Assembly (NCBI RefSeq): GCF_022818495.1
Contig: NZ_CP089291.1
Coordinates: 1,458,501-1,522,500, forward strand
Reading direction: 5' to 3'
From: Fodinisporobacter ferrooxydans
GTDB taxonomy: Bacteria; Bacillota; Bacilli; Tumebacillales; MYW30-H2
Length of the DNA: 64,000 nucleotides
The position numbers were made by a program, and so were the translations under genes. A model generated the notes under the pieces. That model was not told the DNA's origin. It did not search any database and saw only the letters and a list, made by a program, of their open reading frames with translations. Of this stretch, positions 657-41,279 are shown piece after piece (the first letter of the stretch is position 1; each line of letters opens with the position of its first letter).

Positions 657-936
657 TGTGAATTTGCACAATAAATCGGCTTAGGATTTGCAAATTATTT
701 AGGTCCCATATCGAAAGATTTTAGGCCCCTTTTTCAGAATAAATTAGCCAATGATTAAAAAATTTGCACGCTTTCGCGGTCTTCTGGCGAGTATTTCATT
801 CCACTATTATCCAATCCATCCTACTTCAACTACACTTTATCCCAATTCCGCTCTTGTTCAAATCGTTCATTCCCTATATACTCGTCTAATACGTGATCAA
901 GTTTGCTTTTTTCCTAACGCGCTATCGCTTGTTGCA

Positions 937-981
937 CCCAGTAGAAAGGCAATAGCATTTAGCTATTGCCTTTCTACTGGG
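937..981 (-). terminator. Perfect 20-bp stem hairpin at left end of transposon
   Basis: CCCAGTAGAAAGGCAATAGC (937-956) is followed by a 5-nt loop and its exact reverse complement (962-981). It lies about 30 bp downstream of the last transposon gene on the minus strand. There is no clear T-run, so it may be a terminator or an insulator that stops read-through into or out of the element. Confidence 0.6.
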
Positions 982-1010
982 TCTAAGAAGTAATCACTTG
1001 TCACTCTTTG

Positions 1011-1316: not shown

Positions 1317-1317
1317 G

Positions 1318-2127: not shown

Positions 2128-3389
2128 TCCCTATCTTCTCCTTTCCTGTCCATCCCTTGCATATCAGCGAAGGAGATGGCGGGTCGTTTTCGTTTTACAT
2201 GAGCATTATCATGAAAATTCACTTCAGAAGCGCGAGCGACTGGTTTCCCGTCCTCATAGATATGCACGCCTTGTTCATCGTAACGAATCTCGATCTTTTG
2301 ACCTATAAATCGCTCGGGAACTTCATACAGCTGGTTATTGAGCGAAAACGTTCCGTCATGTTTGACAGTTCGATTCTCCCGTTTAAGAAAGATAGGATCT
2401 AATTTGGCAGGGTCGTCGACCATCCGTACTTGATCAATCTGGGACAAGTACACTTCGAGCGGCATTTTTCCATTGAGAGAAGAATGTGGCTTGCGATGGT
2501 AGTCTTCCTCCAACCACTTCCAAAACCGTTCATTCAGTTCTTCCAATGAAGAAGCCGGTTTTGCTTTTAACAGCGAATAGAAACGCGTCTTAATCGTTCC
2601 GAACAGGCGTTCTATTTTCCCTTTGCTAGCGGCATCATAGGGCTGCGTGTGCAGGAGGTGTATGCCTAATTCTGCACAAGCCAAATGCAGCGTATCGGAA
2701 CGAAAGATCTTGCCGTTGTCGGTATACAGCATCTTGGGAATGCCTCTGCGAAGCAAAGCTTCTTTCAAGACTGTGCGTAGCCCGTCAAATTTCTCGGATG
2801 GGACAAATTGCGCAAATGTGCATAGGCGAGAGCAATCATCGATCACCGCAATTAAATACGTCTTGATTTTTTTGTCGCCTGTACGAAGATATGGCCCATC
2901 TGACAGGTCGGTTTGCCAGAGCATATTGACCGTATCATGAGAAAACCGTTTTCGTTCGGGCGAACGCACTATCCCCTTCCCCAGCAATCCCTCCTTTTTC
3001 AGTAAGCGATAGATAGAGGTATAAGATACATCCTGCGGTAAAATCTCTCCTTGTTGCACCAATTGGTCATAAAACACCGTCACTGGCATTCCTTGATTTT
3101 CTTTACGCAGGGATACCAAGTGCAGCTGTAATTCACCGGATAACGATCGGGATTGTCCTCGATCCGAACGTGCCTGGGGCTTTAACGCGTCAAAACCATT
3201 ACGGCGATATTGCCTTAGCCAAGCTAAGATTGTCTTGGGTGTAAATTCTTTGGAACCATAGTAAGGGACTTCGTGGGTTTTGGCAGACACCTCAGCCAAA
3301 TATGTGGCGCGATCCACCTGTTCATTGAGCAAGGGAGCGATGATCCCATAGCGAAAAAGGGCCACGCGTTCCCGGTTTTGTTCATCCAT
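2124..3389 (-). CDS. DDE transposase (integrase-core, Mu/Tn552/IS481-like)
   Basis: A 421-residue transposase. An N-terminal helix-turn-helix region (TPKTILAWLRQYRRNGFDAL) is followed by an rve-type catalytic core. The first Asp is in LWQTDLSDG, the second in LYTDNGKIF and the Glu in KGKIERLFGT, so the DDE triad is complete. The C-terminal part (SLNNQLYEVPERFIGQKIEI) resembles the beta-barrel that follows the core in Mu-type transposases. The TG...CA ends and short target duplication fit this enzyme class. It overlaps the ATPase gene by 4 bases. The protein looks functional. Confidence 0.9.
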   Translation of the reverse strand: MDEQNRERVALFRYGIIAPLLNEQVDRATYLAEVSAKTHEVPYYGSKEFTPKTILAWLRQYRRNGFDALKPQARSDRGQSRSLSGELQLHLVSLRKENQGMPVTVFYDQLVQQGEILPQDVSYTSIYRLLKKEGLLGKGIVRSPERKRFSHDTVNMLWQTDLSDGPYLRTGDKKIKTYLIAVIDDCSRLCTFAQFVPSEKFDGLRTVLKEALLRRGIPKMLYTDNGKIFRSDTLHLACAELGIHLLHTQPYDAASKGKIERLFGTIKTRFYSLLKAKPASSLEELNERFWKWLEEDYHRKPHSSLNGKMPLEVYLSQIDQVRMVDDPAKLDPIFLKRENRTVKHDGTFSLNNQLYEVPERFIGQKIEIRYDEQGVHIYEDGKPVARASEVNFHDNAHVKRKRPAISFADMQGMDRKGEDRE

Positions 3390-3534
3390 TGGTTAAGTAG
3401 CCTCCCATTGTCTAAATTGGAAAGAACTGGCGCGCTTTCTCGTTCTTCCTTTTCGAAGGCTAGCCGGCTAACCATTACGATGCATTATAAAACCCGTACA
3501 CGGTCCCTGACGAGGAAAAAGGTATGTGGAAACA

Positions 3535-4140
3535 TTATTCTGTTTTGGCCACGGGTGATCCGTGATAAAATGAATGTGCCATAAAGCTGCTAATGTAATG
3601 ATTGTGCCACTTTCGAATGAAGGTGACTCTGGGGAGAGTTTCAATCATATTCAGAAGCATTATGGCTTTTTCTATGGGATCTTCTGGGAAGATCTGTTTG
3701 TTCCCCTCAAGACGAAAGAACATCTCGATGATTTTGCTTTTGGCCATCAACCGTTTCCGGTAAAAACAAACTAACTGGCGGCTAAATAGCAGTACACAAT
3801 AAGCCCAGAATAGTTGTAAGGTCTGCAAGATGGAAGAGAGCGTGTTCTGAAAGTAGGGAAGCAGAAAATCCGGAAGAATAGCGAATGTTTTGTTACATTT
3901 GGGATTCGGACATTTGTAACGGCAAATGGGAATCCGATATTCTGCATCGGTCTCGATCGCGTAGCGGTTATAAAAACCATGGCGTTTTAACTTCTGTTGG
4001 GACTTACAAATCGGGCAAGATTCAATCACAGGGAAATTATTGGCCCTGCCGAGCTGAAAATAACAGGGAAGATCAACTGGAAAATGATGGGTAATAATCA
4101 CTCGAAACACCGCCCTTATAATTTGCAAAAAGTTTAGCAA
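3535..4140 (-). CDS. Zinc-ribbon protein of transposon (DUF6431-like)
   Basis: A 201-residue protein, first gene of the element on the minus strand. It carries a treble-clef or zinc-ribbon type set of cysteines, CPICKSQQ and then CPNPKCNKTF, similar to the zinc-binding N-terminus of several transposase-associated proteins (family DUF6431 is my best recollection). The rest is helix-rich and hydrophobic. Its position next to the right inverted repeat and ahead of the transposase suggests DNA recognition or regulation of transposition. About 145 bp separate it from the transposase start. No enzyme motif is visible. Confidence 0.6.
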   Translation of the reverse strand: MLNFLQIIRAVFRVIITHHFPVDLPCYFQLGRANNFPVIESCPICKSQQKLKRHGFYNRYAIETDAEYRIPICRYKCPNPKCNKTFAILPDFLLPYFQNTLSSILQTLQLFWAYCVLLFSRQLVCFYRKRLMAKSKIIEMFFRLEGNKQIFPEDPIEKAIMLLNMIETLPRVTFIRKWHNHYISSFMAHSFYHGSPVAKTE

Positions 4141-4184
4141 ATTGAGGCGGCATTAAAATAGCGGTAATCTGTTCCAATGTGCAA

Positions 4185-4220
4185 ATGAGCACTTGTTTCC
4201 TGCGGAAACAAAGTGCTCAT
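4185..4220. repeat. Inverted repeat abutting right end of transposon
   Basis: ATGAGCACTTGTTTCC (4185-4200) pairs with GGAAACAAAGTGCTCAT (4204-4220) across a 3-nt loop with one extra base. It ends 5 bp from the element tip and includes the GAGCAC part of the terminal repeat. It may be a transposase-binding structure or a transcription block. Confidence 0.65.
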
Positions 4221-4225
4221 TCACA

Positions 4226-4603
4226 CTAATGCTTCTATTGATACCGAACATCCTTTCGCTTCTACTATTTGGCTACTACGGAGTTGTTGGTGGAATTACA
4301 TTTGCTTGGCTAGCAGCACTTTATTGGCCACGCGTTACAACTGTCGCAGCTACTTCAAGTATGATAATCGGTGGTGGGGTTTCAATTGTCTTGTATTTAT
4401 ATAACCAGCTTTCCCATACAACTTTATTTGGTGTTAACCCAATAATCATTGGATTAGTCTTGTCATTCCTCACTATAGTTATTGGTTCATTGTCGCAGAA
4501 AGAGGAATATACAAAGTATTTGAACTTTATTGAGGAAAATAATATTGTCGGAATTCGTCATTTCGGTAAGGTATTAACCAAAAACAATAGCGTTGAAGGT
4601 TAA
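4226..4603 (+). pseudogene. Sodium:solute symporter, 3' part after transposon
   Basis: Continuation of the symporter split at 656. The in-frame peptide runs from LMLLLIPNILSLLLFGYYGV through LAALYWPRVTT, an SSS-family signature-like region, into two further membrane helices and a charged C-terminus, ending at a TAA. In the disrupted state an upstream start inside the transposon end (4193) could translate it as a C-terminal fragment, which is unlikely to transport anything. The stop lies 63 bp before the deacylase gene. Confidence 0.82.
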
Positions 4604-4666
4604 GCATTAAAGTAAATATCCTGAATTTACATTCGTAAGTTTAATAAAATTAAAGGGGATTTATTT

Positions 4667-6289
4667 ATGATTGATTTGGTGATCCGCAATGGTTTAATCG
4701 TTGATGGGATGGGAAATCCAGCTTTTGTTGGTGATATTTCAATTCATAACGGCCATATTGTGAACATTGGGGTTGCTGATGAACAAGGGGAGTGTGAGCT
4801 GAACTCCGAGGGGATGGTGGTCTTTCCGGGGTTTATCGATGCGCATACTCATTCTGACATCGCCCTACTTGAGGAACCCGGAGCTGTTGCAAAAATCTCA
4901 CAAGGTGTAACAACAGAAATATTGGGGAATTGTGGATTTTCTGTTGCCCCAATTATTAAAAGTGATACCATAAAATCGTTCCGTCAGTATTGTAAGCCAG
5001 TATTAGGTTTCCCAGAAAGACTATGGACATGGAGTTCATACTCCGAATATATAGATATGTTGAAAGAGGCTCACCCAGCCGTTAACTATGCGTCCCTCGT
5101 AGGTCATAGCACACTTCGATGTGCCGTAATGGGTTTTGAGAATCGGAGCCCAACTGTTTCTGAATTATCACAAATGAAAGCGCTTCTTGAGGAGGCTTTG
5201 CAGCAAGGTGCGTTTGGAATCTCAACAGGTTTAGCTTATACACCTGGAGCATATGCGGGTACCGAGGAACTAATTGAATTGTCACGGGTTGTTGCCAAGT
5301 ACGGCGGTATCTATACAACACACTTGAGAAACCAGGGAGATATGCTTGTTGGTTCTGTTAAAGAAGCAATTGAGATTGGTGTTCAATCTGGGGTAGCAAT
5401 TCATATATCGCATCACAAGGTGGCCGGGGAGAAAAACGCTGGGTTAGTTAATCGAACTTTGTCATTGCTTGATGAAACTTTTCGCCAGGGTATTAAGTCA
5501 AGTTCTGATATGTACCCGTATTTAGCGGGGAGCACAACTCTTGCATCTTTACTCCCACCCTGGTTGCTTGAAGGTGGAGTAGAGAATATGCTTAGTAGAT
5601 TGCGAAATACGGAGACGAGGAAGATAGTAACTGCCAACTTTGAAAACGGAGTTTCAGGTTGGGAAAACCGTATTAATGCTATCGGATATCAAAATGTAGT
5701 AATTTGTTCACTTGAAAGCTTGGAAAACCGAAAGCTGCAAGGTATGGGGCTCGTTGAAATAGCAAAATTAAGGCATGAATCGGAACTAGAATGTATGTTT
5801 AATCTATTACTAGAGGAGAATGGAGATGTTGGTGTAATTCTCAAAAATTCAACCGAAGTAGATTTACAAACAGTATTAAAACATTCACGTACTGTTGTCG
5901 GGTCAGATGGATTATATAGCGGGGACCATCCCCATCCACGATTGTTTGGAACATTTCCAAGAATGATAAGACGTTATGTAAATGAACGGCCTATTCTTTC
6001 ATTGACGGAAGCTATCCGAAAAATGACTGGATTAACAGCTGAACTCTTCAATCTTAGTAAGGTAGGTAAACTACAAAAAGGGTTTCGTGCCGATATTGTA
6101 GTATTTGACCCTAAGAAAATAAAGGATAATGCAACGTTTGATTATCCCTGTTTGATGGCCGATGGAATTCATCACGTGTTAGTTGGTGGGTGTTTTGCCC
6201 TAAAAGACGGGCAAGTAACTGGTCTACGCAACGGAAATTTTTTAGCTCATTCCGTCTTAGGTAGCAAGGCTGCTAATAGTAAGGACTAA
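4667..6289 (+). CDS. N-acyl-D-amino-acid deacylase (amidohydrolase superfamily)
   Basis: A 540-residue amidohydrolase of the D-aminoacylase/dihydroorotase-like group, which hydrolyses N-acyl-D-amino acids to a D-amino acid and a carboxylate. The metal-binding signature GFIDAHTHSD is near residue 60. Later markers are HISHHKVAG (His ligands), VVGSDGLYSGDHPHPR (Asp near the C-terminal part of the barrel) and the closing RADIVVFDP strand. Length is normal for the family (about 480-540). An AAAGGGGAT ribosome site precedes the ATG. It sits directly downstream of the symporter gene, suggesting a former uptake-and-hydrolysis pair. The exact substrate cannot be read from sequence. Confidence 0.85.
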   Translation: MIDLVIRNGLIVDGMGNPAFVGDISIHNGHIVNIGVADEQGECELNSEGMVVFPGFIDAHTHSDIALLEEPGAVAKISQGVTTEILGNCGFSVAPIIKSDTIKSFRQYCKPVLGFPERLWTWSSYSEYIDMLKEAHPAVNYASLVGHSTLRCAVMGFENRSPTVSELSQMKALLEEALQQGAFGISTGLAYTPGAYAGTEELIELSRVVAKYGGIYTTHLRNQGDMLVGSVKEAIEIGVQSGVAIHISHHKVAGEKNAGLVNRTLSLLDETFRQGIKSSSDMYPYLAGSTTLASLLPPWLLEGGVENMLSRLRNTETRKIVTANFENGVSGWENRINAIGYQNVVICSLESLENRKLQGMGLVEIAKLRHESELECMFNLLLEENGDVGVILKNSTEVDLQTVLKHSRTVVGSDGLYSGDHPHPRLFGTFPRMIRRYVNERPILSLTEAIRKMTGLTAELFNLSKVGKLQKGFRADIVVFDPKKIKDNATFDYPCLMADGIHHVLVGGCFALKDGQVTGLRNGNFLAHSVLGSKAANSKD

Positions 6290-8331: not shown

Positions 8332-10042
8332 CCTGAATCCGTGACAGCTTTTTAGTTAATGTTTTAGAAATGGATAAACACTCTAATTCTTGTCTGAACT
8401 ATTGAAAATAGCATATGGTTTACTGGTTACTATGACTGTGAATCTTCTTCGACTTATTGCTTTTTGGGGCAAACTCGGATTTTGGCAATATCAAACTAAA
8501 CCCTCTAAACTTATTTTTTTGAGAAGGCATTAGATATCTACGTGCTTGTCGTAAATCTCTTTACAAAGAAGCAGTCGTATACATTTGCTTGACCGTATGA
8601 AACCACGGACAGTAACAGCCAAATCGCAGTTTCCATTTACGAGCGTGTCGAACCAAGCGAGCTGCAAGATAAATCATGTTTTGAATGACCGTTCGAATCC
8701 GTCGGCGCTGAACAGACTTTTTGAGTGGCGAGAATGGTGTTTGCAAGCTTTGTTGGCCGATGATCCGTAGCAAATTATAGGCGAATACACCCGCATGCAG
8801 GATTACGTCATTCGTTTTAAATTTGCCTGCCGGCAGCCGTTCCATATCAAGATCTGTCTTGATTTCGCTGTGAAATTGCTCGCTAGTTCCGTGATCATGA
8901 TACAATTCAATGACTTGCCAAGCGGAACAGGTAAGGGATGTCCAATAGGTATCGACTTCAATTTCCGGCACGAACAACACTTGTCCGTCTTTGGTGATCG
9001 TACGTTCCGTCACTTGAAATACGACACGAACCGACTGTTGCATTTCTTTCACGTAAAGGGAAGTCGAACCGATGTACACCTTTTTCCCTTCCCGTTGTTC
9101 ACAGCAGATTCCTTTGGTTTGAGCGACCGTAAGCCACTCTTCGCGGGATTCCTTGCGTAAGTTGCGTTTGATAATGTAGTCTGCTTTTGTTTCTTCTGCA
9201 TGGCACACGACAAGATTGTCCTTGCTGTCATTGCCCGAATCTAGGCGAACCAATAGAGGCTGTTCTGTGATCATGCGGGCATAGTGAATGCTCTGGCTTA
9301 GAAAGGCGGGTGTCCCATTTTGGCAATGTTGCTTGCCTTCCCGTAATTCGACGTTCATGTTGTATCCTTCCCGAGCCAGATAAGCGAAGATGGGTGCGTA
9401 ACCATCAAACGCCTTGTACGTTCGGGAAGTGCCTTCCTTTTTGGTCTTGGAGTTGTCAAAGGGCGAAACATCTACATCAAGCGGAAGAAACTGTTGTTCT
9501 GTCCCATCGGGCAGTCGGATCATAATTGGAGTAAGGGGAACGTTGATGGTTTTCAATAACGTCGCCGACTCTTCCTTCAATATCGTTTGCCAATCCGCAT
9601 CTTCCGATGCTCCCGCCATATCAAGACGCTGACGCAGTGTGGGACTGGAAGGAACCAATTTCAAGTCCAACGAGAGGGCAAAAAAATCATCTTCACGGAA
9701 AGGCTCGATGGCATCGAAGTCGTTCTTGCCTTGACAAAGCAGACCCAGATAGGAAGACATGATGTCGCCGTTGGAAATGTCAGGAGAACGAACTCCGTCG
9801 AGTTTCGTATGATCCAATCGTTGTGTCAATCGGGTTTGTGCAATCAATTGGCCTATGGCAGCAAGTCCCGAATGCGAAGTCAGGTATTCATTGGATTGTT
9901 CAAATTCAAAATGTACCGGCATATAATGGACACCCCTGTGGTGAAGTTTGTTTATGTAAGAAAAAAACTCGGTTTTCTCCATTATACGTATTAAATCTCT
10001 GTTATTCTATTGTTTTCATAAAAGTAATTTCACGGATTCAGG
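8332..10042 (-). mobile_element. Complete IS1380-family insertion sequence (1,711 bp)
   Basis: The left end reads CCTGAATCCGTGA at 8332 and the right end carries its reverse complement, TCACGGATTCAGG, ending at 10042: 13-bp terminal inverted repeats. The 5-bp sequence TTGCG is present on both sides (8327-8331 and 10043-10047), a target duplication of a size typical for IS1380. It holds one transposase gene on the minus strand. A degenerate copy of its transposase-proximal end occurs at 22743. Confidence 0.88.
8561..9922 (-). CDS. IS1380-family transposase
   Basis: About 453 residues from the chosen ATG (MPVHFEFEQSN), which has AGGGGTG upstream; the frame is open 20 codons further to 9982. 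The features are those of IS1380 DDE transposases: an Asp in FLPLDVDVSPFDNS, a second acidic region in PLLVRLDSGNDSKDN, and the conserved YHDHGTSEQFHSEIKTDLDM region near the C-terminus with the catalytic Glu. Length fits the family (about 430-480). The frame is intact and flanked by matching inverted repeats, so the element may be active. Confidence 0.88.
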   Translation of the reverse strand: MPVHFEFEQSNEYLTSHSGLAAIGQLIAQTRLTQRLDHTKLDGVRSPDISNGDIMSSYLGLLCQGKNDFDAIEPFREDDFFALSLDLKLVPSSPTLRQRLDMAGASEDADWQTILKEESATLLKTINVPLTPIMIRLPDGTEQQFLPLDVDVSPFDNSKTKKEGTSRTYKAFDGYAPIFAYLAREGYNMNVELREGKQHCQNGTPAFLSQSIHYARMITEQPLLVRLDSGNDSKDNLVVCHAEETKADYIIKRNLRKESREEWLTVAQTKGICCEQREGKKVYIGSTSLYVKEMQQSVRVVFQVTERTITKDGQVLFVPEIEVDTYWTSLTCSAWQVIELYHDHGTSEQFHSEIKTDLDMERLPAGKFKTNDVILHAGVFAYNLLRIIGQQSLQTPFSPLKKSVQRRRIRTVIQNMIYLAARLVRHARKWKLRFGCYCPWFHTVKQMYTTASL

Positions 10043-30484: not shown

Positions 30485-31750
30485 TTAATATCCGCGTTTT
30501 GCAAGAATCAATCCGCTAATACCGCCGATCAAAGCAAAAATGATCAGATACGGAAAACCGATCGAGAAGGAAATACCCAAAATATATGTGCCTACTGCAG
30601 CTATGATATTTTCCAACCCGTTCAAAAGCCCGGCGCCGGCACCCACATTTTGGCTTGGGAACATCCGCTGCAATGAGCTCCAGATCGTCGGCAACACGAC
30701 ACCGTTCATCGCGCTCGAAATGGAAATCAAAATCATGGCAAGCACGAGATTGCCGGAATGTGTTCCAAGGAATAATCCGATACCTGCAATAAATGTCCCG
30801 ATTGACGCAAAAATGGAGCGCTTCATCAATTTATCACTGGCAAATGCGGTCAGTATGATACAAATCGTCATTAAAATATATGGAAGCATATACCAGAATC
30901 CAGTCATATGCAAGGATAAATGACGTACTTTCATAAGGTACGAAGGAAGCCAGAATAAAATGCCATAGAAAACGGTGGCCATGCCTGACCAGTTGATAAG
31001 CAGCAGCCAAAAATCCCACTTTCTTAAAACTTCGCCGACAGACACGACAGATCCTGTGACTTCATCCTGCCGACCTGCTTGAATATACGCCAATTCTTCC
31101 TTTGAGACATACTTGCTTTCTTCCGGTCGATCTTTCGCGATTTTCCATATAATAGGGAGCATAATAATGATACCGATCAGAGCCAACAAAATAAATGGTG
31201 TTTTCCAGGTGCCGGTAGAAATAATTAACCACGTAACCAAAGGTCCGGTGATGATGGGTCCCATGGTCAGACCGAATTCCCAAAACATGTTGGCGCGTGC
31301 ACGTTCATGTGCAGGGAACCAGGATTTTACCCATTTTGAGTTCAGCGGCCAGTGCATGCCTTCACCTAACCCTAACAGTACGCGGGACAGAATTAAAGCG
31401 GCCGAGCTCCAAATGACCCCTGTGAACAATGTCATCAGCGACCACCAAGTGAGGGCGACAAGTGCAATTTTACGCGGTCCGAAGCGGTCGCTCAGAAACC
31501 CGCCGAAAATGTTCGAGAGACCATACATGAATAGGAATAGACTGTTGGCCAATGCAAGCGCAGCCGGTGTCACAACGCCGTCTTTTATCATGCTTGGGCC
31601 GGCGATCGAGATATTCGTGCGGTCAATGTACGAGACCAGCAATAATACCCATAAAGCAACGGAAAACCACCAGCGAAAGTTGGTTTTGGTCTGTGTGATC
31701 ACAGGCCTGTTGTTCAATTCTGAAACATTTGATCCGCCAAGTGTTGCCAT
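30485..31750 (-). CDS. MFS transporter, anion:cation symporter type
   Basis: A 421-residue, 12-helix MFS protein. LLVSYIDRTNISIAGPSM and the loop FGGFLSDRFGPRKIAL (motif A) match the ACS family that imports organic acids such as glucarate, galactonate and phthalate. GLGEGMHWPLNSKWVKSWFP is another ACS hallmark. AAAGGGAGTG precedes the ATG. It is divergent from a GntR/FCD regulator and a GlcDF-type oxidase, with matched operators in the shared region, so the likely cargo is the 2-hydroxyacid those subunits oxidise. Confidence 0.88.
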   Translation of the reverse strand: MATLGGSNVSELNNRPVITQTKTNFRWWFSVALWVLLLVSYIDRTNISIAGPSMIKDGVVTPAALALANSLFLFMYGLSNIFGGFLSDRFGPRKIALVALTWWSLMTLFTGVIWSSAALILSRVLLGLGEGMHWPLNSKWVKSWFPAHERARANMFWEFGLTMGPIITGPLVTWLIISTGTWKTPFILLALIGIIIMLPIIWKIAKDRPEESKYVSKEELAYIQAGRQDEVTGSVVSVGEVLRKWDFWLLLINWSGMATVFYGILFWLPSYLMKVRHLSLHMTGFWYMLPYILMTICIILTAFASDKLMKRSIFASIGTFIAGIGLFLGTHSGNLVLAMILISISSAMNGVVLPTIWSSLQRMFPSQNVGAGAGLLNGLENIIAAVGTYILGISFSIGFPYLIIFALIGGISGLILAKRGY

Positions 31751-31825
31751 AGAATCACTCCCTTTACCATATAGATTTGTCCCTGGCCCAACTGCACTGT
31801 GAACATAATAGATTGTTAGGCAGTT

Positions 31826-31841
31826 AGGTTGTCAGACAATT
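31826..31841. promoter_or_regulatory. FCD-regulator operator, transporter side
   Basis: AGGTTGTCAGACAATT is the exact reverse complement of the 16-mer at 31948-31963. Its core TTGTCAGACAA is near-palindromic (TTGTC-N-GACAA), as GntR/FadR-group operators usually are. It lies about 75 bp upstream of the MFS start. Confidence 0.75.
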
Positions 31842-31947
31842 CCATCATACGAATCTAGGAATATATTGTCAACGCTTACAATGGGAATTTTTAGATTGCT
31901 TTCTATTGACAATTGAAAGATATGAATTAAAGTAGAAAATATAATTC

Positions 31948-31963
31948 AATTGTCTGACAACCT
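31948..31963. promoter_or_regulatory. FCD-regulator operator, regulator side
   Basis: AATTGTCTGACAACCT matches the opposite-facing site at 31826. It lies 45 bp upstream of the regulator ATG, downstream of a TATAAT-like stretch at 31940, well placed for autorepression. Confidence 0.75.
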
Positions 31964-32008
31964 GACATATATTCTGGTCGATTGAAATCATTGCTTAAGG
32001 TGGACGAA

Positions 32009-32725
32009 ATGACAATTCAAAAAATTCGGAAGACAAAAGTCACAGATGAAGTTGTGGAACAATTAAAAACCCTGATTCAACAAGGATTTTACAAAACGGG
32101 TGAAAAATTGCCCCCAGAAAAGGAACTTGCCAAACAATTTGGGGTCAGCCGTGCATCTATACGGGAAGCGCTATCCGTGCTGTCGGCAGCACAAATTGTA
32201 GAAGCTAGGCAAGGGGAAGGTTCATTCGTGCAAACCATTGACGTGACCCGTTATATTCCGCCTGTTGCGGTTTCTATCCTGTCCTTGCCGGAACAAACGC
32301 TTCATTTGCTCGAAGTCCGAAAAATTTTGGAGGCTTCTGCCGCGGAATTGGCTGCAGAAAGGGCGACAGAAGAGGATCTTGAGCAGCTGGAAGCGGCGGT
32401 TCACGGGTATCTTGACGAAATCCAAATGGGCCAGATCGGTCAAACAAATGATTTGCTGTTTCATCAGGTGCTTGCAATGGCCGCCAGGAATCCCGTGCTG
32501 GTGGAGATGATGCAGCGAATTTCGGATTTGGTTCGTGAAGGCATGCGTTATACGTTGGAGCAAAACATGGGGAATGAGGAACGGAAACATGAGGTATATG
32601 AGGAACATCTCCACATCCTTCAGGCGATCAAGAACCGCAATTCCGAAGCTGCCCGGCAGGCCATGATCACACATCTGGACAATGTCCGGAAAAAGATCCT
32701 TCGGCAAAGGCAGATCACCAATTAA
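32009..32725 (+). CDS. GntR/FadR-family (FCD domain) transcriptional regulator
   Basis: A 238-residue regulator. The N-terminal winged helix-turn-helix has TGEKLPPEKELAKQFGVSRASIREAL, and the C-terminal helical FCD domain has LEVRKILEASAAELAAERATEEDL and FHQVLAMAARNPVL, with His residues in expected metal-site positions. ATG 32009 follows AAGGTGG with good spacing; upstream TTG 31982 is less likely. It is divergent from the MFS gene and ahead of the GlcD/GlcF pair, so it probably controls both using the hydroxyacid as inducer. Confidence 0.88.
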   Translation: MTIQKIRKTKVTDEVVEQLKTLIQQGFYKTGEKLPPEKELAKQFGVSRASIREALSVLSAAQIVEARQGEGSFVQTIDVTRYIPPVAVSILSLPEQTLHLLEVRKILEASAAELAAERATEEDLEQLEAAVHGYLDEIQMGQIGQTNDLLFHQVLAMAARNPVLVEMMQRISDLVREGMRYTLEQNMGNEERKHEVYEEHLHILQAIKNRNSEAARQAMITHLDNVRKKILRQRQITN

Positions 32726-32880
32726 TGTAAAATGGGAGGGACTAGAATATGTCTTGCTGAGGTTCAACAGCGACGGAGAAATCCTGAAAGTATGGATATC
32801 GAACATAAGGGGAATTTCATCTGACCGAATGTTGAAAAGTCATTTGGGGCTAACATTTACGAAAGTTAGGTGTTTTGCTT

Positions 32881-34299
32881 ATGGGGAACAAGATACATGC
32901 GGAAGTGCTGAGCGAACTGGGGTCTGCACTCGCGCCGGAACGTGTATTGACAGCAGAAGCAGACCGCTGGAGCTACTCCTATGACGCTTCTTTTGGAGTA
33001 TATCCTCCGGAATGCGTGGTCCAGCCGATTTCTACGGAAGAAGTCGTCGCATTGGTGAGAATCGCCTGTAAACATAACATACCGCTGTATCCCCGCGGAG
33101 CCGGCAGTTGCTTGAGCGGCGGCCCCCTTCCCGTATATGGCGGGATTGCCGTTGATCTCACACATTTGAATCAGACACTGGAGATTTTTGCGGATGATCT
33201 GGTCGCGGTTGTATCACCGGGAGTCAAAACAGGAGATATTCAAAAAGCGGCGGAACGTTATGGCTTATTTTACCCGCCGGACCCTAGCAGTTCCGGTATT
33301 TCCACAATCGGCGGGAACATTGCGGAAAATTCCGGCGGTCCGCGCGGATTAAAATACGGAGTCACACGGGATTACGTATTGGGACTTGAAGTGGTAACGC
33401 CGGAGGGTAGCGTTTTACGAACAGGCGGGAGGACCGTCAAAAATGTCACCGGCTACGATTTGACCCGGCTGATCATCGGCTCTGAGGGGACGTTGGGCAT
33501 TGTCACAAAAGCGGTATTGCGGCTGCTGCCCAAACCGCAGGCGCGCCGGACCATGCTTGCCGTTTTTTCCGATTTGGTCCAATCCGGACGGGCGATCTCA
33601 AAAGTCTTGACATCCGGAATCCTGCCGTGCGCAATTGAAATCATTGATCAAGCATGCCTGCGTGCGGTCGAAGCATTTCGGCCCGGCGGTCTGCCGATAG
33701 ATGCAGAAGCTGTCCTTTTGGTGGAAGTGGATGGTCATCCTGCTGCTGTTGAAGAAGAAATTTTGCAAGTCGCTGAAATTTGCCGGCAATTGGGTTCCGT
33801 CCATGTAGAAATCGCCAAAGACGAGCAAACGAGGGAACGTTTGTGGTTTGCACGCAAACAGATCTCACCGGCCATTGCCCGAATCAAACCGACAAAAATT
33901 TCTGAAGATGCGACAGTACCGCGCAGCCAGATTCCTGCCATGTTTGCGAGATTAAAGCAAATCCGCGAGAAATATGCCATTGATCTGGTGGTTTTTGGCC
34001 ATGCCGGGGATGGCAATCTGCATCCGAATATTCTCTGCGATATGCGCAATCAAGAGGAAATGCAGCGGGTGGAGCAAGCGGTGAGTGAAATTTTTCAAGC
34101 GGCGCTGGAATTGGGCGGAACGTTATCAGGAGAACATGGGATCGGGACGATGAAGGCGCCTTTTCTCTCATGGGAAGTCGGGGAAGTCGGCATCGATATG
34201 ATGAAGCGGATCAAAACCGCATGGGATCCGCTCAGTATTATGAATCCCGGCAAAATATTTCCGGAACCCGGGAATGATAGGCTGGTGTTGCGTCAATGA
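32881..34299 (+). CDS. glcD: FAD-linked 2-hydroxyacid oxidase subunit, GlcD type
   Basis: About 472 residues. The PCMH-type FAD-binding domain has LYPRGAGSCLSGG, VSPGVKTGDIQKAAERYGLFYPPDPSS and GGNIAENSGGPRGLKYGVTR. The C-terminal domain has VVFGHAGDGNLHPNI and GTLSGEHGIGTMKAPFL, both typical of glycolate and D-lactate oxidase subunits. The ATG at 32881 and a TTG at 32875 are both possible starts. The stop overlaps the GlcF-like gene by 4 bases. With the Fe-S subunit it would oxidise glycolate, lactate or a related 2-hydroxyacid and pass electrons to the quinone pool. The 32726-32880 spacer has no gene. Confidence 0.88.
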   Translation: MGNKIHAEVLSELGSALAPERVLTAEADRWSYSYDASFGVYPPECVVQPISTEEVVALVRIACKHNIPLYPRGAGSCLSGGPLPVYGGIAVDLTHLNQTLEIFADDLVAVVSPGVKTGDIQKAAERYGLFYPPDPSSSGISTIGGNIAENSGGPRGLKYGVTRDYVLGLEVVTPEGSVLRTGGRTVKNVTGYDLTRLIIGSEGTLGIVTKAVLRLLPKPQARRTMLAVFSDLVQSGRAISKVLTSGILPCAIEIIDQACLRAVEAFRPGGLPIDAEAVLLVEVDGHPAAVEEEILQVAEICRQLGSVHVEIAKDEQTRERLWFARKQISPAIARIKPTKISEDATVPRSQIPAMFARLKQIREKYAIDLVVFGHAGDGNLHPNILCDMRNQEEMQRVEQAVSEIFQAALELGGTLSGEHGIGTMKAPFLSWEVGEVGIDMMKRIKTAWDPLSIMNPGKIFPEPGNDRLVLRQ

Positions 34300-35660
34300 A
34301 TATAAATGCCGAAAGCAAGACTGCCGATAAAAACGGTTTGCTGGTTGGAAAAGAATATTCCTTGGCAGATGCGCTTGCATATGAAGATACACTCCGCTGC
34401 GTACAATGCGGATATTGTTTACCGGTGTGTCCGACACACCGCACGATGGGCACGGAAACCCAGTCGCCCCGCGGCCGCATTAACTTGGTGAAGATGGCGG
34501 CAGAAGGAAAAGTCAGTGACCTGTCCGTTTTGGCAGAACCGATTGATTTGTGCCTTGGCTGTCGCGCCTGTGAAACGGCCTGCCCGGTAGGAGTTCCGTA
34601 TGGACATATCCTCGAACAAACCCGACATGTTCTTTGGGAGAAGCAGCAAAAAGAGACAAAACAAACTTGGCGGCAAAAAGCTCAGAACTGGTTTTACCGG
34701 AAAGTTTTCCCGAATGCCAGACGTATGCAGCGTGTCGGGGATCTCCTATGGCTGTACCAACAGACCATCGGACGGACTGGTCATTGGTTCACATCACTTC
34801 CTGTATTTCCTAAGAGTATGCGAGAATTTGCCCGCATCCTGCCAAAGATGGAGAACCCTTTTTATCGCAGACAAATATCGGAATCATATACCCATCAGAC
34901 TGCCGCCATTACATCACAATCAAACATGGCATTCCTGTTTACAGGGTGCATTATGGATGTCATGTTTCACCGGATCAATCGCCAGACCGGCCGGTTACTC
35001 AATCGTTACGATTGGCGGGTGGCAGTTCCGCACACGCAATCCTGCTGTGGCGCATTGCATGCACATATCGGCGATCTTGATACTGCGAAAACACTCGCCT
35101 GCAAGAATATCGAAGCGTTTGAACAATCGGGCGCCGATATTCTTGTACATACGGCGGGTGGATGCGGGGGCATGCTGTTCGAATACGGAAAGCTGCTAGC
35201 CGATGATCCTGATTGGTCGGAACGAGCCAAACGTTTTTCGGAAAAAGTAAAAGATATTAGCGAAATTGCTGCATCTGTACCGCAGGAAGTGTTCGTAAAG
35301 GATGTACCGCTCCGTGCCACATATCAATCCTCATGTCACTTGCGCTACGTAGCCGGTGTAAAAGATGCACCCGTGCAAGCGCTGCAACGCATACCGGGAA
35401 TTACATACGTGGAAATGAAGGAGATGGACAGATGCTGTGGTTCGGCGGGAATCTACAACGTAGTGAATTATGATGCGTCGATGGAAATTCTGGACGAGAA
35501 AATGGAAAACGCCGCAAACACACATGCACAAGTATTGGTGACATCGAATCCGGGATGTCTTCTGCAGATGAAACTGGGAATTGAAAGACACGGGATGTCT
35601 GAACACATGCAAGCGGTTCACTTGGTGGAGCTATTGGCACAATCCTGTGACATTAAATGA
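34296..35660 (+). CDS. glcF: Iron-sulfur subunit of 2-hydroxyacid oxidase, GlcF type
   Basis: A 454-residue protein with two 4Fe-4S motifs (CVQCGYCLPVCPTHR and CLGCRACETACPVG) and two CCG domains in the C-terminal half (HTQSCCGALHAHIGD; SCHLRYVAG with DRCCGSAGIYNV), as in GlcF and LutA-like electron-transfer subunits. The overlap with GlcD and the strong terminator at 35678 define a two-gene unit. No separate GlcE subunit gene is seen; the GlcD frame already contains a full FAD domain. Confidence 0.88.
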   Translation: MNINAESKTADKNGLLVGKEYSLADALAYEDTLRCVQCGYCLPVCPTHRTMGTETQSPRGRINLVKMAAEGKVSDLSVLAEPIDLCLGCRACETACPVGVPYGHILEQTRHVLWEKQQKETKQTWRQKAQNWFYRKVFPNARRMQRVGDLLWLYQQTIGRTGHWFTSLPVFPKSMREFARILPKMENPFYRRQISESYTHQTAAITSQSNMAFLFTGCIMDVMFHRINRQTGRLLNRYDWRVAVPHTQSCCGALHAHIGDLDTAKTLACKNIEAFEQSGADILVHTAGGCGGMLFEYGKLLADDPDWSERAKRFSEKVKDISEIAASVPQEVFVKDVPLRATYQSSCHLRYVAGVKDAPVQALQRIPGITYVEMKEMDRCCGSAGIYNVVNYDASMEILDEKMENAANTHAQVLVTSNPGCLLQMKLGIERHGMSEHMQAVHLVELLAQSCDIK

Positions 35661-36061: not shown

Positions 36062-36090
36062 AAAAAAAAAGAAGGAGTTATCTCTCCTTC
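36062..36090 (-). terminator. Terminator of the cytochrome b operon
   Basis: On the minus strand GAAGGAG-AGATAA-CTCCTTC is followed by nine T residues. It lies 75 bp below the last gene of the 36164-38252 cluster. Confidence 0.85.
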
Positions 36091-36163
36091 CTCATAGTTC
36101 GTTGATCACACTGATAAAAATGTGGCTATACTGTTTCCACCTAAAAAAGTAGTATAACAATAC

Positions 36164-36370
36164 CTATTGAACTCTTTGTCGTCGATACGCTTGTCGTGCG
36201 GATGATAATATTTTTCCCGTCATCCAAATTCCGAGAGACAGGATTGGTATTCCGTATATTGACTTCTCCCAAAGACCTTCAAAGATTCCCTGATAGACAA
36301 GAGAAGTTCCATACACACCTATGACTAGTGCAGTAAGCCATATTCCCCATAGTCGTATACCTTTACCCAT
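36164..36370 (-). CDS. Small two-helix membrane protein
   Basis: 68 residues from the ATG that follows AAGGAGGACACT; the frame extends 5 codons further with a GTG. Two hydrophobic segments (IWLTALVIGVYGTSLVY; IYGIPILSLGIWMTGKIL) are followed by a basic tail ARQAYRRQRVQ, giving a probable cytoplasmic C-terminus. It lies 69 bp downstream of the 363-residue protein on the same strand, with a terminator only after it, so it is probably the fourth gene of the cytochrome b operon. No family recognised. Confidence 0.6.
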   Translation of the reverse strand: MGKGIRLWGIWLTALVIGVYGTSLVYQGIFEGLWEKSIYGIPILSLGIWMTGKILSSARQAYRRQRVQ

Positions 36371-36439
36371 AGTGTCCTCCTTCACTCGATTCAGTTGTTA
36401 TTGGTTGGCGGAATCATACGGAATTCAAATGAGTTATGT

Positions 36440-37531
36440 TTATGAATTCGAACCATTTTGATAACACGCAGGTGCAAAACCTGATTTTACTACCGCTTGT
36501 TTGGAATTTCGAAACTCTTGCCGGCAAGATTCCCGAAGCGGGCAATTTGCACAGGTATTGTCACTTTCCAACCGCTTATACCAATCTCTCCATATCAACC
36601 GATGGATTGACAACAGTCGAGGCAATTTATTTAGGCCTGGAATCCATGGGACAAACAGTAAAATTGCGAATAAAACGGCTATTGTATATGCTGCAAGTTC
36701 ATCACCGGCAGATGATGTTGACCAAGGCGGAATTTGATACAAGAATGTATATGGAGTCAGCCACCAAGGACCCGGATATGCCTGCTCATCGTGGTTAATC
36801 CCCCATTGTTCCCCTTTCATATTAATTTTACCTGCTATTTGATGCAGCGTTTTGCCTTGCAAGAATAAAAGATCATTTTGAACGTTCCAACGATAAACAC
36901 CTTGATTGCTGGAACGATCCAATATTCCAGATAGCATTCCTGATTTTGCCAACGATAACTCATCATTCATCATAAGAGCAACGGGGCCATAATTCCCTCG
37001 AGGGATTACCACGTTTCCATTTTCCACGTTTGCTTTTTTCAATGCTTTCGACAAGTTGCTATCCCATGTTTGCTGTTGTTTGACAGAAGCCGACTGGTAC
37101 GTCTGGAGTGCCGATTGCAATTGTTGATTATCGGAAGCATTTGCGAGCATATGCAGCGGTGTCAAAACATCCGTCTTTGCCGCATCAATCGGATAAGGCG
37201 TCCCCCACCAAGTTTGCGGATGAAAGGATCCAATGGATTGAACCCCGTTTTCCTGTCTATTCCAGCCGTTGTTATAGGGTGGCCCGTAACTGGCGATTGT
37301 TCCGGAACCGTCGAGATCGCCCAATGCGGCACGCTCAATCAGGATCGGTGATTTTTGTGCTATTTCTTGATTTGTTACAGCGGCTCGATATGGAGCACCC
37401 CATAATGCAGAGAGACCGACGATGACTACACCCGAGATAACGAGGCTGATCACACCTTCTTTTACCATATCAAAATCTTTTTTTGGAAATTGAAGTGTAT
37501 TCCGGTTAAATCGAAGTACCTTCATTTTCAT
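36440..37531 (-). CDS. Membrane-anchored protein of unknown family in cytochrome b operon
   Basis: 363 residues. An N-terminal membrane helix (GVISLVISGVVIVGLSAL, about residues 26-44) is followed by a roughly 230-residue domain, probably outside the membrane (LGDLDGSGTIASYGPPYN, FHPQTWWGTPYP, WWLTPYTFLYQIPPW). A second helix follows (YTIAVLFAILLFVPWIPGL), then a cytoplasmic tail with TCANCPLRESC and a further Cys in FAPACYQNG. No CxxCH heme motif and no Rieske motif is present. Its start overlaps the cytochrome b stop by 4 bases, so it is very likely a partner subunit. The four-cysteine tail could bind a metal. I cannot name the family. Confidence 0.7.
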   Translation of the reverse strand: MKMKVLRFNRNTLQFPKKDFDMVKEGVISLVISGVVIVGLSALWGAPYRAAVTNQEIAQKSPILIERAALGDLDGSGTIASYGPPYNNGWNRQENGVQSIGSFHPQTWWGTPYPIDAAKTDVLTPLHMLANASDNQQLQSALQTYQSASVKQQQTWDSNLSKALKKANVENGNVVIPRGNYGPVALMMNDELSLAKSGMLSGILDRSSNQGVYRWNVQNDLLFLQGKTLHQIAGKINMKGEQWGINHDEQAYPGPWWLTPYTFLYQIPPWSTSSAGDELAAYTIAVLFAILLFVPWIPGLNKLPRLLSIHRLIWRDWYKRLESDNTCANCPLRESCRQEFRNSKQAVVKSGFAPACYQNGSNS

Positions 37532-38139
37532 ACACCATCCTTTTTCTTCAGGCGAGCTGGATACGGTGGAACGACACCTTTACTTCGAACGGCAAGCAAA
37601 TGCCAGCCAACCAAAATAAACAAAATAAACGGCAGCACAACAATATGGATTCCGTAAACCTGTCCGTTGTTGAGAATATTCAGGAAACCATCCATTCCTG
37701 CGCCGTTAAAAGCATCCTTGCTTTGTACCTGGTTCCATTGAGAAAAAAAGTCTCCTCTGGAGAGATAGCCGGTAAATGCATCTACGACAGAAATTCCAAA
37801 TGATAGTACGCCAATAACCCAAGTTACAGTTCGACCCTCACGCCACGATCCCATAAAAAACTGTACGACCAGGTGCATCGTCATAAAGAAGAAAAATGCT
37901 TGCACACTCCAAAAATGGATGCTTCGCAAAAATTCCCCCAGGCCTGAATACTGATACCATAACGGTCCTTTTGCCGCCATGATCACTCCGGATGCGATAC
38001 AAAATACCAGACTGCTCAGTGTAAAGACGCCAAAACTGTATACCAATGAAGATACATAAACGGGTTGTTCCGAAGGGAGCAAATTTTCCCAGGATAATTT
38101 TTCCGACATGCGAGTGCGTATGGATTTGGTCCAATTCAT
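37528..38139 (-). CDS. b6-type diheme cytochrome b (N-terminal domain only)
   Basis: A 203-residue, four-helix cytochrome b. Two His pairs fit bis-His heme ligation: HFWSVQAFFFFMTMH (13 residues between) and HIVVLPFILFILVGWH (14 between), the latter spacing being b6-like. The region after helix C reads TGYLSRGDFFSQWN where b6 proteins usually have a Pro-Trp-Asp motif. The subunit IV half with the PEWY quinol site is absent, and no Rieske gene lies nearby. ATGA overlaps join it to both the upstream 38-residue protein and the downstream 363-residue protein. It probably moves electrons across the membrane to or from the menaquinone pool with an unusual partner. Confidence 0.85.
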   Translation of the reverse strand: MNWTKSIRTRMSEKLSWENLLPSEQPVYVSSLVYSFGVFTLSSLVFCIASGVIMAAKGPLWYQYSGLGEFLRSIHFWSVQAFFFFMTMHLVVQFFMGSWREGRTVTWVIGVLSFGISVVDAFTGYLSRGDFFSQWNQVQSKDAFNGAGMDGFLNILNNGQVYGIHIVVLPFILFILVGWHLLAVRSKGVVPPYPARLKKKDGV

Positions 38140-38252
38140 GATTTGTCACTCCCCTTTTTATGTGGATATTTACCAATCATGAAAGCGATAAAAACAATCA
38201 ACCAAAGCACCCCGATGTAATAATTGGGCCAAGCATTTGAGATGTCGACCAT
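38136..38252 (-). CDS. 38-residue single-helix membrane protein
   Basis: MVDISNAWPNYYIGVLWLIV begins a single hydrophobic helix ending FIAFMIGKYPHKKG with a charged tail. AGAAAGGAG lies 9 bases upstream of the ATG. Its TGA overlaps the ATG of the cytochrome b gene (ATGA), so it is the first gene of the operon. The size and single helix recall the tiny subunits of b6f-type complexes, but no specific homology is claimed. Confidence 0.75.
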   Translation of the reverse strand: MVDISNAWPNYYIGVLWLIVFIAFMIGKYPHKKGSDKS

Positions 38253-38314: not shown

Positions 38315-38342
38315 AGGATACTACTAATTTGAAATGTGTCAA
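38315..38342 (-). promoter_or_regulatory. Predicted sigma-A promoter of cytochrome b operon
   Basis: On the minus strand, TTGACA (38342-38337), a 16-bp spacer and TATCCT (38320-38315), about 60 bp before the first start codon. Confidence 0.6.
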
Positions 38343-38585: not shown

Positions 38586-38657
38586 GGTTTGTTTTATTTG
38601 TTTTTATTGCACACCCGTAAAAATCCTCAAAATACTATGAATTGGGTGATTCACTCT

Positions 38658-39299
38658 ATGGCTATTCGGATTGCCGCATTCGATCAGAACCCACTGTTTC
38701 TTTTTGGAGTTGTTCTCACGTTGGAATCAGCTTCAGACTTTGAAATCGTAGGGGTAGGAAGCAGTGAAGAAGAGGCCATTCAAGTTGTAAAGGAATTTAG
38801 CCCCGACATCGTGCTTATTAATCCATTTCATTCTTCTATGCATGGATTAACTACGATTCAACGTATTTTAAAATCTTGCTCAGGTACTAAAATTGTGATC
38901 ATTACAGAAGGGAATTGTAATTTTATTTGTAAACTGGATAAATATAGTATATACGGTTATTTAAATAAAAGTATAGATCCTGACCGTCTTGTTCATTATT
39001 TGTATAACATTTACGCTGAGGAAAAGAATATGTTGGGCATTGAGAAGCGTACATGCGAATGCAGTCTGCGATCGAAAATAGAGGAAATTCCGATCCGGGA
39101 AATTGAGGTTTTGATTAAAATGTCAGCAGGTTCAACAGATCAGGAAATTTCAAGGTTTTTGAAAAGAAATATCCATACTGTACGTAAACACGTATCCAAT
39201 ATTTTGAAAAAATTTCATGTAAAAAATCGAACACAAGTGGTCAGTTATATGCAAACAGGTGTATTTATATCCGGTCGCAATTTTTGGAGTATGAAATGA
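38658..39299 (+). CDS. NarL/LuxR-type response regulator with altered receiver domain
   Basis: About 213 residues from MAIRIAAFDQNP; earlier in-frame starts exist, to 38589. Residues 1-120 form a receiver-like domain: the acidic Asp (AFDQNP) and Lys (GYLNKSIDPD) are in place, but the expected phosphoacceptor Asp is Asn (PDIVLINPFHSSMHG). The C-terminal helix-turn-helix EIEVLIKMSAGSTDQEISRFLKRNIHTVRKHVSNIL is typical LuxR/GerE. No histidine kinase is next to it. It is divergent from the cytochrome b operon and preceded by a palindrome around its -10 box. It is likely a phosphorylation-independent regulator of itself and perhaps of that operon. Confidence 0.82.
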   Translation: MAIRIAAFDQNPLFLFGVVLTLESASDFEIVGVGSSEEEAIQVVKEFSPDIVLINPFHSSMHGLTTIQRILKSCSGTKIVIITEGNCNFICKLDKYSIYGYLNKSIDPDRLVHYLYNIYAEEKNMLGIEKRTCECSLRSKIEEIPIREIEVLIKMSAGSTDQEISRFLKRNIHTVRKHVSNILKKFHVKNRTQVVSYMQTGVFISGRNFWSMK

Positions 39300-39591: not shown

Positions 39592-41279
39592 CATGACTTA
39601 TGCAGTTTGAGGTAAACTCTGGTAAATATCGGGTTTGGGCGTAGCCCAAAGAAGCATTAAGTAATGCTCAGGCCAAAATAATTCAATGAGTCTTGCAAAT
39701 TGCTGCACTTGTGTGTCACAATCAATGTAGATTCGCTGAATACCTTTGTGGTTCTTCACGCGAACCTGGCAACGAGTGTGGAAGAGGCCACGAACCATTT
39801 CGCCGTGGGTGTAGCCTTCATCATCACTCGTTTTTTCTTTGTTCAATTCAAAAAGTGCAACAGCTAATAAGGTCTCGGCAGTGAACAATAATTCGAAATG
39901 AGCATGATGATGCGCTTGAGATTCAGAATGACACTTTTCGAAAGCTAGTTCCTGCTTGGCAGCGCGAAAGAATACTTCGATCCTCCAGCGTTTGATATAC
40001 GTTTGTAGAGCTTCTTTCGGAGTATCATGACGGTTGCTTATAATTAGGTACGCACCTTTGTATGTGGCGGGTGAATCCTCACCTTCGGTTTCTACATTAT
40101 CTGAATCGAGTCGCTCATCTTCCTTTAATCGCATGGCGACTACAGCGGCGATTGGGACATATTTATGTTTGGTCACTTGCTTGCCTTTACGATTGACAGC
40201 GGCATAAGGACGCTTCATGTAAATCCCTGGAATGGAAATGGAGACCAGCCCAGAAGTTGCCTTTCGAGTTAATTCCTTAAACACCTCACGGATGAGCATG
40301 ACAGGAGTTAGCGGCACGAAACGTTCCCTACGGGTACCGGGTTCGATGACTTTACGGAATAAAATTGTGTTGCGTTTGGCTTTGGTAACCCAATCAAAGT
40401 TGTTCTCTTCGAGAAATGTGAAAAACTGCTTACACAAGTACCACCGATCCATCGCAACCCACAAGTGGCAAGTGACGGATTCACGCAGCATCAATAGCAT
40501 TTGCCTAGCGAGATCTAGTTTTGTAATCCCTTCGCCTTTTATTTCTGGCTTATGCCAGACACGGTAAAACAACGGATACTCCAACCCGCTTTTCAGAACC
40601 GCCTGAAGAACCACAAGATTCGTCGCCCATACATAGACTTTCATTGAGTGGTCAAAGAGCCAACTGAGAAACGGAAGTTGCTTGGCATAAGGATGCGCAC
40701 TGTGAGTATCATCGAGATTGATCACATCTCCATCGGTGAGTTGTGTCAAGGGATCTTGTTGTAGTCGTTCGACGCGTTTTTTCCCAAATGTCATCCATGC
40801 AAAGCCATTCGTGAAAAAACGGCTTAACGTAGATTGGGTAAATTTCCAAGGCTGAAACATCGCCTTAAGCAACGTATCCTTGCTGGCCAGTTTCACTATC
40901 TGAACAACAGAAGGACAATTCGAAACAATACCAACGACATAGAGAAAGCAAATTAACCATGACGGAGTTCCACTGCGTTTCATGATGCCTGATTGAGTGA
41001 GTAACAGAGAAAAGTCAAAACGATCCCATAAACTTTTAAGAATGGGTGCCCCTGCACATTCTCCATGATTGAGCTCTTTAAATCTTGGTTTTTGTAACGC
41101 TGACATTAGAAAACCACCTATAATCCAGAAGATATACCTAGTAAATAAAGGTATCCTTCGTGATTATTGTGATAATTTCTAAAAGTCAAGTAGTTTTTGT
41201 GATTTTTTTCGAAATATTATTGAAAATTATTGTTCTGATGAATGATTACCAGTTAATTACTTGAACTGCATAGGTCATG
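39592..41279 (-). mobile_element. Complete IS4-family insertion sequence (1,688 bp)
   Basis: The left end is CATGACTTATGCAGTTTGAG and the right end, read inward, is CATGACCTATGCAGTTCAAG: inverted repeats with three mismatches in 20. The 7-bp direct repeat ATCTAAT flanks it at 39585-39591 and 41280-41286. One transposase gene on the minus strand fills it. Upstream, 39300-39591 has no convincing gene. Confidence 0.87.
39598..41106 (-). CDS. IS4-family transposase
   Basis: A 502-residue DDE transposase. DGDVINLDDTHSAHPYAKQ holds the first Asp, HLWVAMDRWYLCKQFF the second, and YIKRWRIEVFFRAAKQELAFEKC is the Y-(2)-R-(3)-E-(6)-K signature of IS4 that carries the catalytic Glu. The N-terminal helical part matches IS4 subgroup proteins that use LSRFFTN-like motifs. 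The stop lies 6 bp inside the left inverted repeat. The frame is intact, so the element could be mobile. Confidence 0.88.
   Translation of the reverse strand: MSALQKPRFKELNHGECAGAPILKSLWDRFDFSLLLTQSGIMKRSGTPSWLICFLYVVGIVSNCPSVVQIVKLASKDTLLKAMFQPWKFTQSTLSRFFTNGFAWMTFGKKRVERLQQDPLTQLTDGDVINLDDTHSAHPYAKQLPFLSWLFDHSMKVYVWATNLVVLQAVLKSGLEYPLFYRVWHKPEIKGEGITKLDLARQMLLMLRESVTCHLWVAMDRWYLCKQFFTFLEENNFDWVTKAKRNTILFRKVIEPGTRRERFVPLTPVMLIREVFKELTRKATSGLVSISIPGIYMKRPYAAVNRKGKQVTKHKYVPIAAVVAMRLKEDERLDSDNVETEGEDSPATYKGAYLIISNRHDTPKEALQTYIKRWRIEVFFRAAKQELAFEKCHSESQAHHHAHFELLFTAETLLAVALFELNKEKTSDDEGYTHGEMVRGLFHTRCQVRVKNHKGIQRIYIDCDTQVQQFARLIELFWPEHYLMLLWATPKPDIYQSLPQTA

Follow-up and report, generated by a model that had tools for sequence, protein, structure and literature searches.

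Four tightly packed genes lie on the minus strand of the window (the whole stretch of 64,000 nucleotides of Fodinisporobacter ferrooxydans DNA that was analysed). The organism is an iron oxidiser of the Alicyclobacillaceae and MK-7 is its only quinone (PMC11123200). In the direction of transcription, the genes encode a 38-aa protein with one helix (38136-38252), a b6-type diheme cytochrome b of 203 aa (37528-38139), a 363-aa protein with two membrane anchors (36440-37531), which is probably a divergent subunit IV, and a 68-aa protein with two predicted hydrophobic helices (36164-36370, counted from its ATG). All four are open reading frames at the places given to them by an earlier interpretation of the letters of the window, here called the sequence-only reading, and the first three do overlap by 4 bases, at 38139-38136 and at 37531-37528. 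A purine-rich, ribosome-binding-like stretch can be read directly in the sequence 5' of each of the four starts. A consensus scan places a putative promoter (TTGACA-16-TATCCT, 10/12 matches) upstream of the operon at 38315-38342 and a terminator-like hairpin with a T tract at its end (36068-36093, a consensus-scan match only), both on the minus strand. GlcD/GlcF-like (glycolate-oxidase-type) genes converge on the operon at one side and a NarL/LuxR-type response regulator gene (38589-39299, plus strand) diverges from it at the other; the four-gene set is thus complete in itself and not a piece of a larger, canonical operon. The GlcD/GlcF-like genes, together with an MFS transporter and a GntR-type regulator (30485-35660), probably form a glycolate or lactate utilisation cluster unrelated to the operon. 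The response regulator gene has no adjacent kinase gene. Regulators of the same type adjoin the operon in three other loci (L017, L018 and L021) and lie near it in a fourth (L066), and the divergent regulator may control the complex.

A first survey, of a species-level genome collection, found 18 loci, including those of Alicyclobacillus ferrooxydans, A. tolerans, A. montanus, A. mengziensis (which has three copies of the system), A. hesperidum and Sulfoacidibacillus thermotolerans. The cytochrome b, 38-aa and 363-aa genes keep the same order in 17 of these loci, and the 68-aa gene is present in ~16; across close loci, in nearly all of which a homologue of the 38-aa protein is encoded 5' of the cytochrome b, identities are 72-85% for the cytochrome b and 56-70% for the 363-aa protein. 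The family of the 363-aa protein was looked for more widely within the Bacillota: 14 of 399 genomes of the class have it, 6 of 398 sampled across the phylum, and 34 of 121 in the Sulfobacillus class; no plasmid record carries the system. Nearly every homologue of the 363-aa protein sits 3' of a cytochrome b of this type, and the distance matrices of the two proteins correlate with r 0.94 (permutation maximum 0.17), so that the co-occurrence across Bacillota that the sequence-only reading had proposed for checking is borne out. Dozens of genomes have the genes of the set in this order, far beyond what chance would give. Three clades can be told apart. Clade A has the four-gene set, includes the window's and belongs to the Alicyclobacillaceae. 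Clade B (33-45% identical) consists of cytochrome b-363-aa pairs in Sulfobacillus and others and also takes in second copies in Alicyclobacillus. Clade C (24-29% identical) includes a second locus in the genome of the window (L025) and L067. A solitary homologue, which immediately follows a murB-like gene and has no cytochrome b beside it (L016:8001-8987), comes from a MAG contig that may be rearranged or misassembled. Transposase-like genes flank the operon in the window (2124-3389, 8561-9982 and 39598-41106); together with its absence from the 13 same-order relatives in the class, they suggest that the operon arrived horizontally.

By its sequence, the cytochrome b is a member of the bc/b6f family and not of the hydrogenase type. 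It scores 50.3 bits on PF13631 (cut-off 27) and 40.2 bits on PF00033 in Pfam, and its ligand histidines, H75/H89 and H165/H180, have the b6-like spacing of 14 and 15; all four are invariant in the 71 cytochrome b homologues. The best match in NCBIfam is ExtP (NF040969), at 65 bits far under the curated cut-off of 290. Several landmarks of the family have gone. The Pro-Trp-Asp that follows helix C (in the cd1 helix, at the Qo site) reads Arg-Gly-Asp in the window, a change that the sequence-only reading had spotted; among the 71 cytochromes b, P139 of this motif is replaced by R, Q or N and the position of D141 is D or N. The heme-ci cysteine, Cys35, is Ser in the window; S, L and M are the commonest residues there in the family, the cysteine being lost in most members and kept in clade C. 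In the GG pair the second Gly has given way to another residue, and Asp20 is lost. Kept are Y34, G37, T40, G51 and the equivalent of Arg207 with the Gly that follows it, the latter near the inner quinone site of b6f. On the outer side, a set of new residues (Q134, W135, Q139, K141, D142, N145, N154, N157, G159 and Q160) is near-invariant, clustered between the end of helix C and the start of helix D. Landmarks lost while new outer residues are all but fixed point to an outer site that is altered and still constrained, rather than to decay.

Two-heme b proteins often serve as enzyme anchors, and the complex might likewise hold in the membrane, and conduct electrons for, a dehydrogenase or some other enzyme that is encoded elsewhere, like the b subunits of hydrogenase or formate dehydrogenase. 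The outer domain of the 363-aa protein could then be a docking site, and a weak match of the cytochrome b to PF01292 (hydrogenase-type b) would fit. That match is below cut-off, however, the protein falls in the bc/b6f family, and no enzyme gene recurs beside the operon in the neighbourhoods of the 18 loci; we regard the anchor as quite unlikely.

The nature of the 363-aa protein is harder to pin down. Searched as a single sequence or as a profile against Pfam, NCBIfam and the sequences of the PDB, it returns nothing above chance, and a construct from which the insert described below had been deleted finds no match in Pfam either, PF00032 (subunit IV/cytochrome b C-terminal) included. Profile-profile comparison is more telling. 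With the insert removed, hhalign aligns the 363-aa profile to a profile of Bacillota QcrC and PetD with 87% probability (P 4e-6); the full-length profile gives 64.5% and the C-terminal part 73.8%, against <3% for reversed-profile controls. The aligned ends run PYTFLYQIPP..LLFVPWIPG in the 363-aa protein and YFLFLYQLLKY..LLAPWLD in subunit IV, and the three match scores exceed those of all 200 hydropathy-preserving window shuffles (40.4 versus 31.5, 38.8 versus 33.2 and 33.7 versus 30.5). With a larger subunit IV set the probability at the same place is 77.5%, and with an independent set it is 42%; a PetD-only profile, which is without power, gives nothing, and the N-terminal anchor taken alone does not rise above its shuffles. 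A structure predicted from 73 homologues (mean pLDDT 78; an earlier, poor model from 21 sequences had reached 55) has anchors at residues ~22-44 and 276-292, the second closely preceded by a short helix (256-265), and an outer domain that is helical; Foldseek and VIA-align find no fold match for it in the PDB.

Taken together, the profile matches, the matching topology and the gene order (cytochrome b, then subunit IV) make it probable, if short of assured, that the 363-aa protein descends from subunit IV by a remote homology. Most likely, its first anchor is the counterpart of helix E, the ef helix and helix F are represented by the last 100 residues, and helix G is gone; the ~200-aa extracytoplasmic insert probably sits in the ef loop. 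The statement of the sequence-only reading that no subunit IV is encoded is, by the same comparison, probably wrong; the relationship to the bc/b6f subunit is probable and distant rather than the clear homology that, to that reading, would have spoken against its proposal. No acidic residue stands at the position of the PEWY Glu. Since no member of the family has the heme c motif CXXCH (0/73), most (54/73) have no cysteine at all and no metal-type residue is invariant, the outer domain is probably free of cofactors. At least four cysteines occur in 13 of the 73 members. In some clade A members only, a C-x2-C-x4-C motif with a further Cys ~20 residues on follows the second anchor (36440-36580 in the window), and is possibly a metal or Fe-S site on the cytoplasmic side. 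A fusion of cytochrome b with the 363-aa homologue, suspected from open frames of ~540 aa, was not confirmed.

The two small proteins match nothing above chance in Pfam or NCBIfam. A short hydrophobic ORF nevertheless ends near the start of the cytochrome b in 64 of 77 locus rows, in clades A and B, and this recurrence makes the 38-aa protein probably a general subunit and not a stray ORF. Homologues of the 68-aa protein, 35-64% identical, are present in most clade A loci, with weaker ones in some loci of clade B. By analogy with b6f, which has small subunits of its own, both may be small accessory subunits.

The cytochrome b has very probably been met before. Justice et al. (2014) described a di-heme, petB-like cytochrome b in Sulfobacillus that comes without cytochrome c or iron-sulfur protein and belongs to "not canonical bc complexes" (PMC4378227). 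The only PF13631 cytochrome b of S. acidophilus belongs to this system, and the species has no PF00032 protein; a CtaA-like gene comes first there, followed by the genes for the cytochrome b and for a 326-aa homologue of the 363-aa protein. In the RNA-seq analysis of strain TPY by Guo et al. (2016), the "petI operon" comprises TPY_3081, a protein for cytochrome oxidase assembly, TPY_3080, a cytochrome b that rises from 150 to 4771 RPKM (32-fold) between sulfur and FeSO4, and TPY_3079, a "cytochrome c subunit" that rises from 471 to 6029 RPKM (13-fold; RT-PCR value 4.92) (PMC5114278). Gene order and the sole cytochrome b of the sister strain identify TPY_3079-3080 as very probably an orthologous, clade B pair; "petI" is probably a misannotation, and the partner apparently bears the name "cytochrome c subunit" although no member of the 363-aa family has CXXCH. 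The S. thermosulfidooxidans "cytochrome b/b6 domain" genes Sulth_2730/2731, which are also higher with Fe(II) (log2 1.8 and 1.4; PMC6315122), may be the same pair, and S. thermotolerans is recorded as having no bc1 complex and two genes for a "cytochrome b subunit of bc1" (PMC6803676). These published RNA data suggest that Fe(II) switches on close relatives of the window's system. The sequence-only reading had proposed a quinone-linked complex not yet described: the system is indeed self-contained, conserved and probably quinone-linked, but its cytochrome b was noted in 2014, so that this protein is not wholly undescribed, and the pair figures in RNA-seq as "petI". No description of the complex, the 363-aa subunit or the small subunits was found in the literature searched, nor did that literature yield the identity of the partner, the spread in the Alicyclobacillaceae or a connection with the RNA-seq data on Fe(II).

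The sequence-only reading was right that neither a Rieske protein nor a cytochrome c is encoded here. The operon has no Rieske subunit, nor is one a recurring neighbour (a few clade B loci were read by eye only), and no cytochrome c1/f or other heme c subunit lies in the operon. Rieske proteins are present in every genome tested, however, the heme ligands of the cytochrome b are intact, and a cytochrome b followed by a subunit IV-like gene is the order of petBD and qcrBC. One might accordingly suppose an ordinary bc/b6f complex that recruits Rieske and cytochrome c subunits in trans. Against this, a complete, canonical qcrABC is already encoded in the host genome, at 3.71 Mb, the Pro-Trp-Asp is lost and the acidic residue of PEWY is missing, and the Rieske proteins encoded on the chromosome of S. 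acidophilus lack an anchor and look soluble; recruitment in trans is very unlikely. A mutual exclusion between the system and canonical PF00032 proteins was looked for and set aside, as the two are not associated in the Sulfobacillus class (PF00032 in 15 of the 34 genomes that have the system and in 31 of the 87 that lack it).

A bc core without a Rieske protein cannot bifurcate quinol electrons, but electrons can pass through a two-heme b protein from a quinone site to an outer carrier or back. In the acidic surroundings of acidophiles, the potential of an outward-open quinone site is higher by ~60 mV for each pH unit, so that donors of high potential reduce quinone more easily. The complex would have kept the electron-conducting core of bc/b6f and dropped the Rieske-dependent, bifurcating half. 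The two b hemes of the cytochrome b would carry electrons across the membrane, linking the menaquinone pool with a separate one-electron carrier outside the cytoplasm (sulfocyanin or cytochrome c), and the inserted outer domain of the 363-aa protein could serve as a cap and docking platform. We infer the substrate, the partner and the direction; that the complex is a bc-type menaquinone oxidoreductase which works without a Rieske protein and trades electrons with a carrier on the outside seems to us about evenly poised between right and wrong.

A candidate for the carrier comes from the 121 Sulfobacillus-class genomes: a sulfocyanin (PF06525, E <= 1e-6) is found in 21 of the 34 with the system and in 1 of the 87 without it, an association that is a lead only, being confounded by phylogeny and descent. 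S. acidophilus has the system and no PF06525 match. A cupredoxin-like (sulfocyanin/rusticyanin-like) gene lies ~3-4 kb from a clade C copy in genome G289 (L067:12415-13062). Two single frames of 529 and 517 aa (L138, G600:C10:777-1967; L139, G831:C49) match the subunit IV and sulfocyanin models in a row, the former also the cytochrome b model; these are apparent cytochrome b-sulfocyanin fusions.

The direction of electron flow invites a different proposal, the main rival to the oxidoreductase just outlined: a menaquinol dehydrogenase that delivers electrons to an acceptor outside the cell, Fe(III) or another, in the manner of the inner-membrane quinol dehydrogenases of extracellular electron transfer (EET). 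Many bearers (Sulfobacillus, A. tolerans) do reduce Fe(III) anaerobically (PMC8790237), and ExtP, the nearest NCBIfam model, is the b cytochrome of a reductive operon. The cytochrome b is nevertheless no member of ExtP by the cut-off of that model, induction was seen on Fe(II) and not under Fe(III) respiration, and no multiheme cytochrome gene was recognised near the operon. The outward direction is, in our judgement, unlikely. The low-pH effect on the quinone site and the Fe(II) induction make quinone reduction by iron-derived electrons the first choice: in iron oxidisers, Fe(II) electrons would most likely reach menaquinone through the complex, this being the uphill branch needed for NADH. 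A bolder formulation, of a third bc-type architecture that is Rieske-free, has subunit IV as a cap with a large ectodomain and admits Fe(II) electrons into the menaquinone pool of Gram-positive iron oxidisers, is conceivable and on present showing doubtful. Some bearers, such as A. hesperidum, are not known to us to oxidise iron, and the complex must accordingly have some other role as well. Counting against the iron-to-quinone role, a-type cytochromes dominate the spectra recorded in situ for A. ferrooxydans and S. thermosulfidooxidans on iron (PMC5143472).

Gram-positive biomining acidophiles oxidise Fe(II), several of them without a recognisable bc1 (PMC6803676, PMC4062416). The complex is a concrete candidate for the passage of their electrons to quinone and NADH; if the assignment is true, it fills the uphill branch whose components are missing from the published models of Sulfobacillus and Alicyclobacillus iron oxidation. 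Published RNA-seq data probably contain it already, under a name that misleads. It would also be a case of a bc core that stays strongly conserved although the Rieske protein and both canonical Qo motifs have gone, a point of interest for the origin and the possible loss of quinol bifurcation.

How does the complex compare with known systems? A further, putative complex with an unusual cytochrome b is encoded in the same genome at ~181 kb (L026:7348-9276); its 642-aa cytochrome b (95.8 bits on PF13631) has a long extra C-terminal part, and genes for a response regulator and a multicopper-oxidase-like protein lie close by. The clade C loci are among the closest known systems: the second system of the genome of the window (L025, ~1.852 Mb) and L067 pair a cytochrome b with homologues of 339 and 309 aa at the clade's 24-29% identity to the 363-aa protein, but their cytochrome b keeps the heme-ci cysteine (WYCMGG), and no 38-aa partner was found there. 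The petB-like cytochrome b of Sulfobacillus (PMC4378227) and TPY_3079-3080 (PMC5114278) very probably represent the same system in its clade B form; neither paper recognised the partner protein or the small subunits, and the window's set is the clade A form with its 38-aa and 68-aa genes. With the Bacillus-type QcrABC and the PetB/PetD of b6f, the complex shares a split cytochrome b (a four-helix diheme protein, then a second membrane protein), the b6-like histidine spacing, the conserved Y34, G37, T40, G51 and Arg207-equivalent, and, on profile comparison, a C-terminal part of the 363-aa protein that matches helices ef and F of subunit IV. Unlike them, it has no Rieske protein and no heme c, a changed Pro-Trp-Asp, no PEWY Glu, a heme-ci cysteine that is mostly lost, a ~200-aa insert in the ef loop, no helix G and other small subunits. 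Sharing the bc/b6f core and departing from it in the Rieske protein, heme c and the Qo motifs, it should not be called a bc complex.
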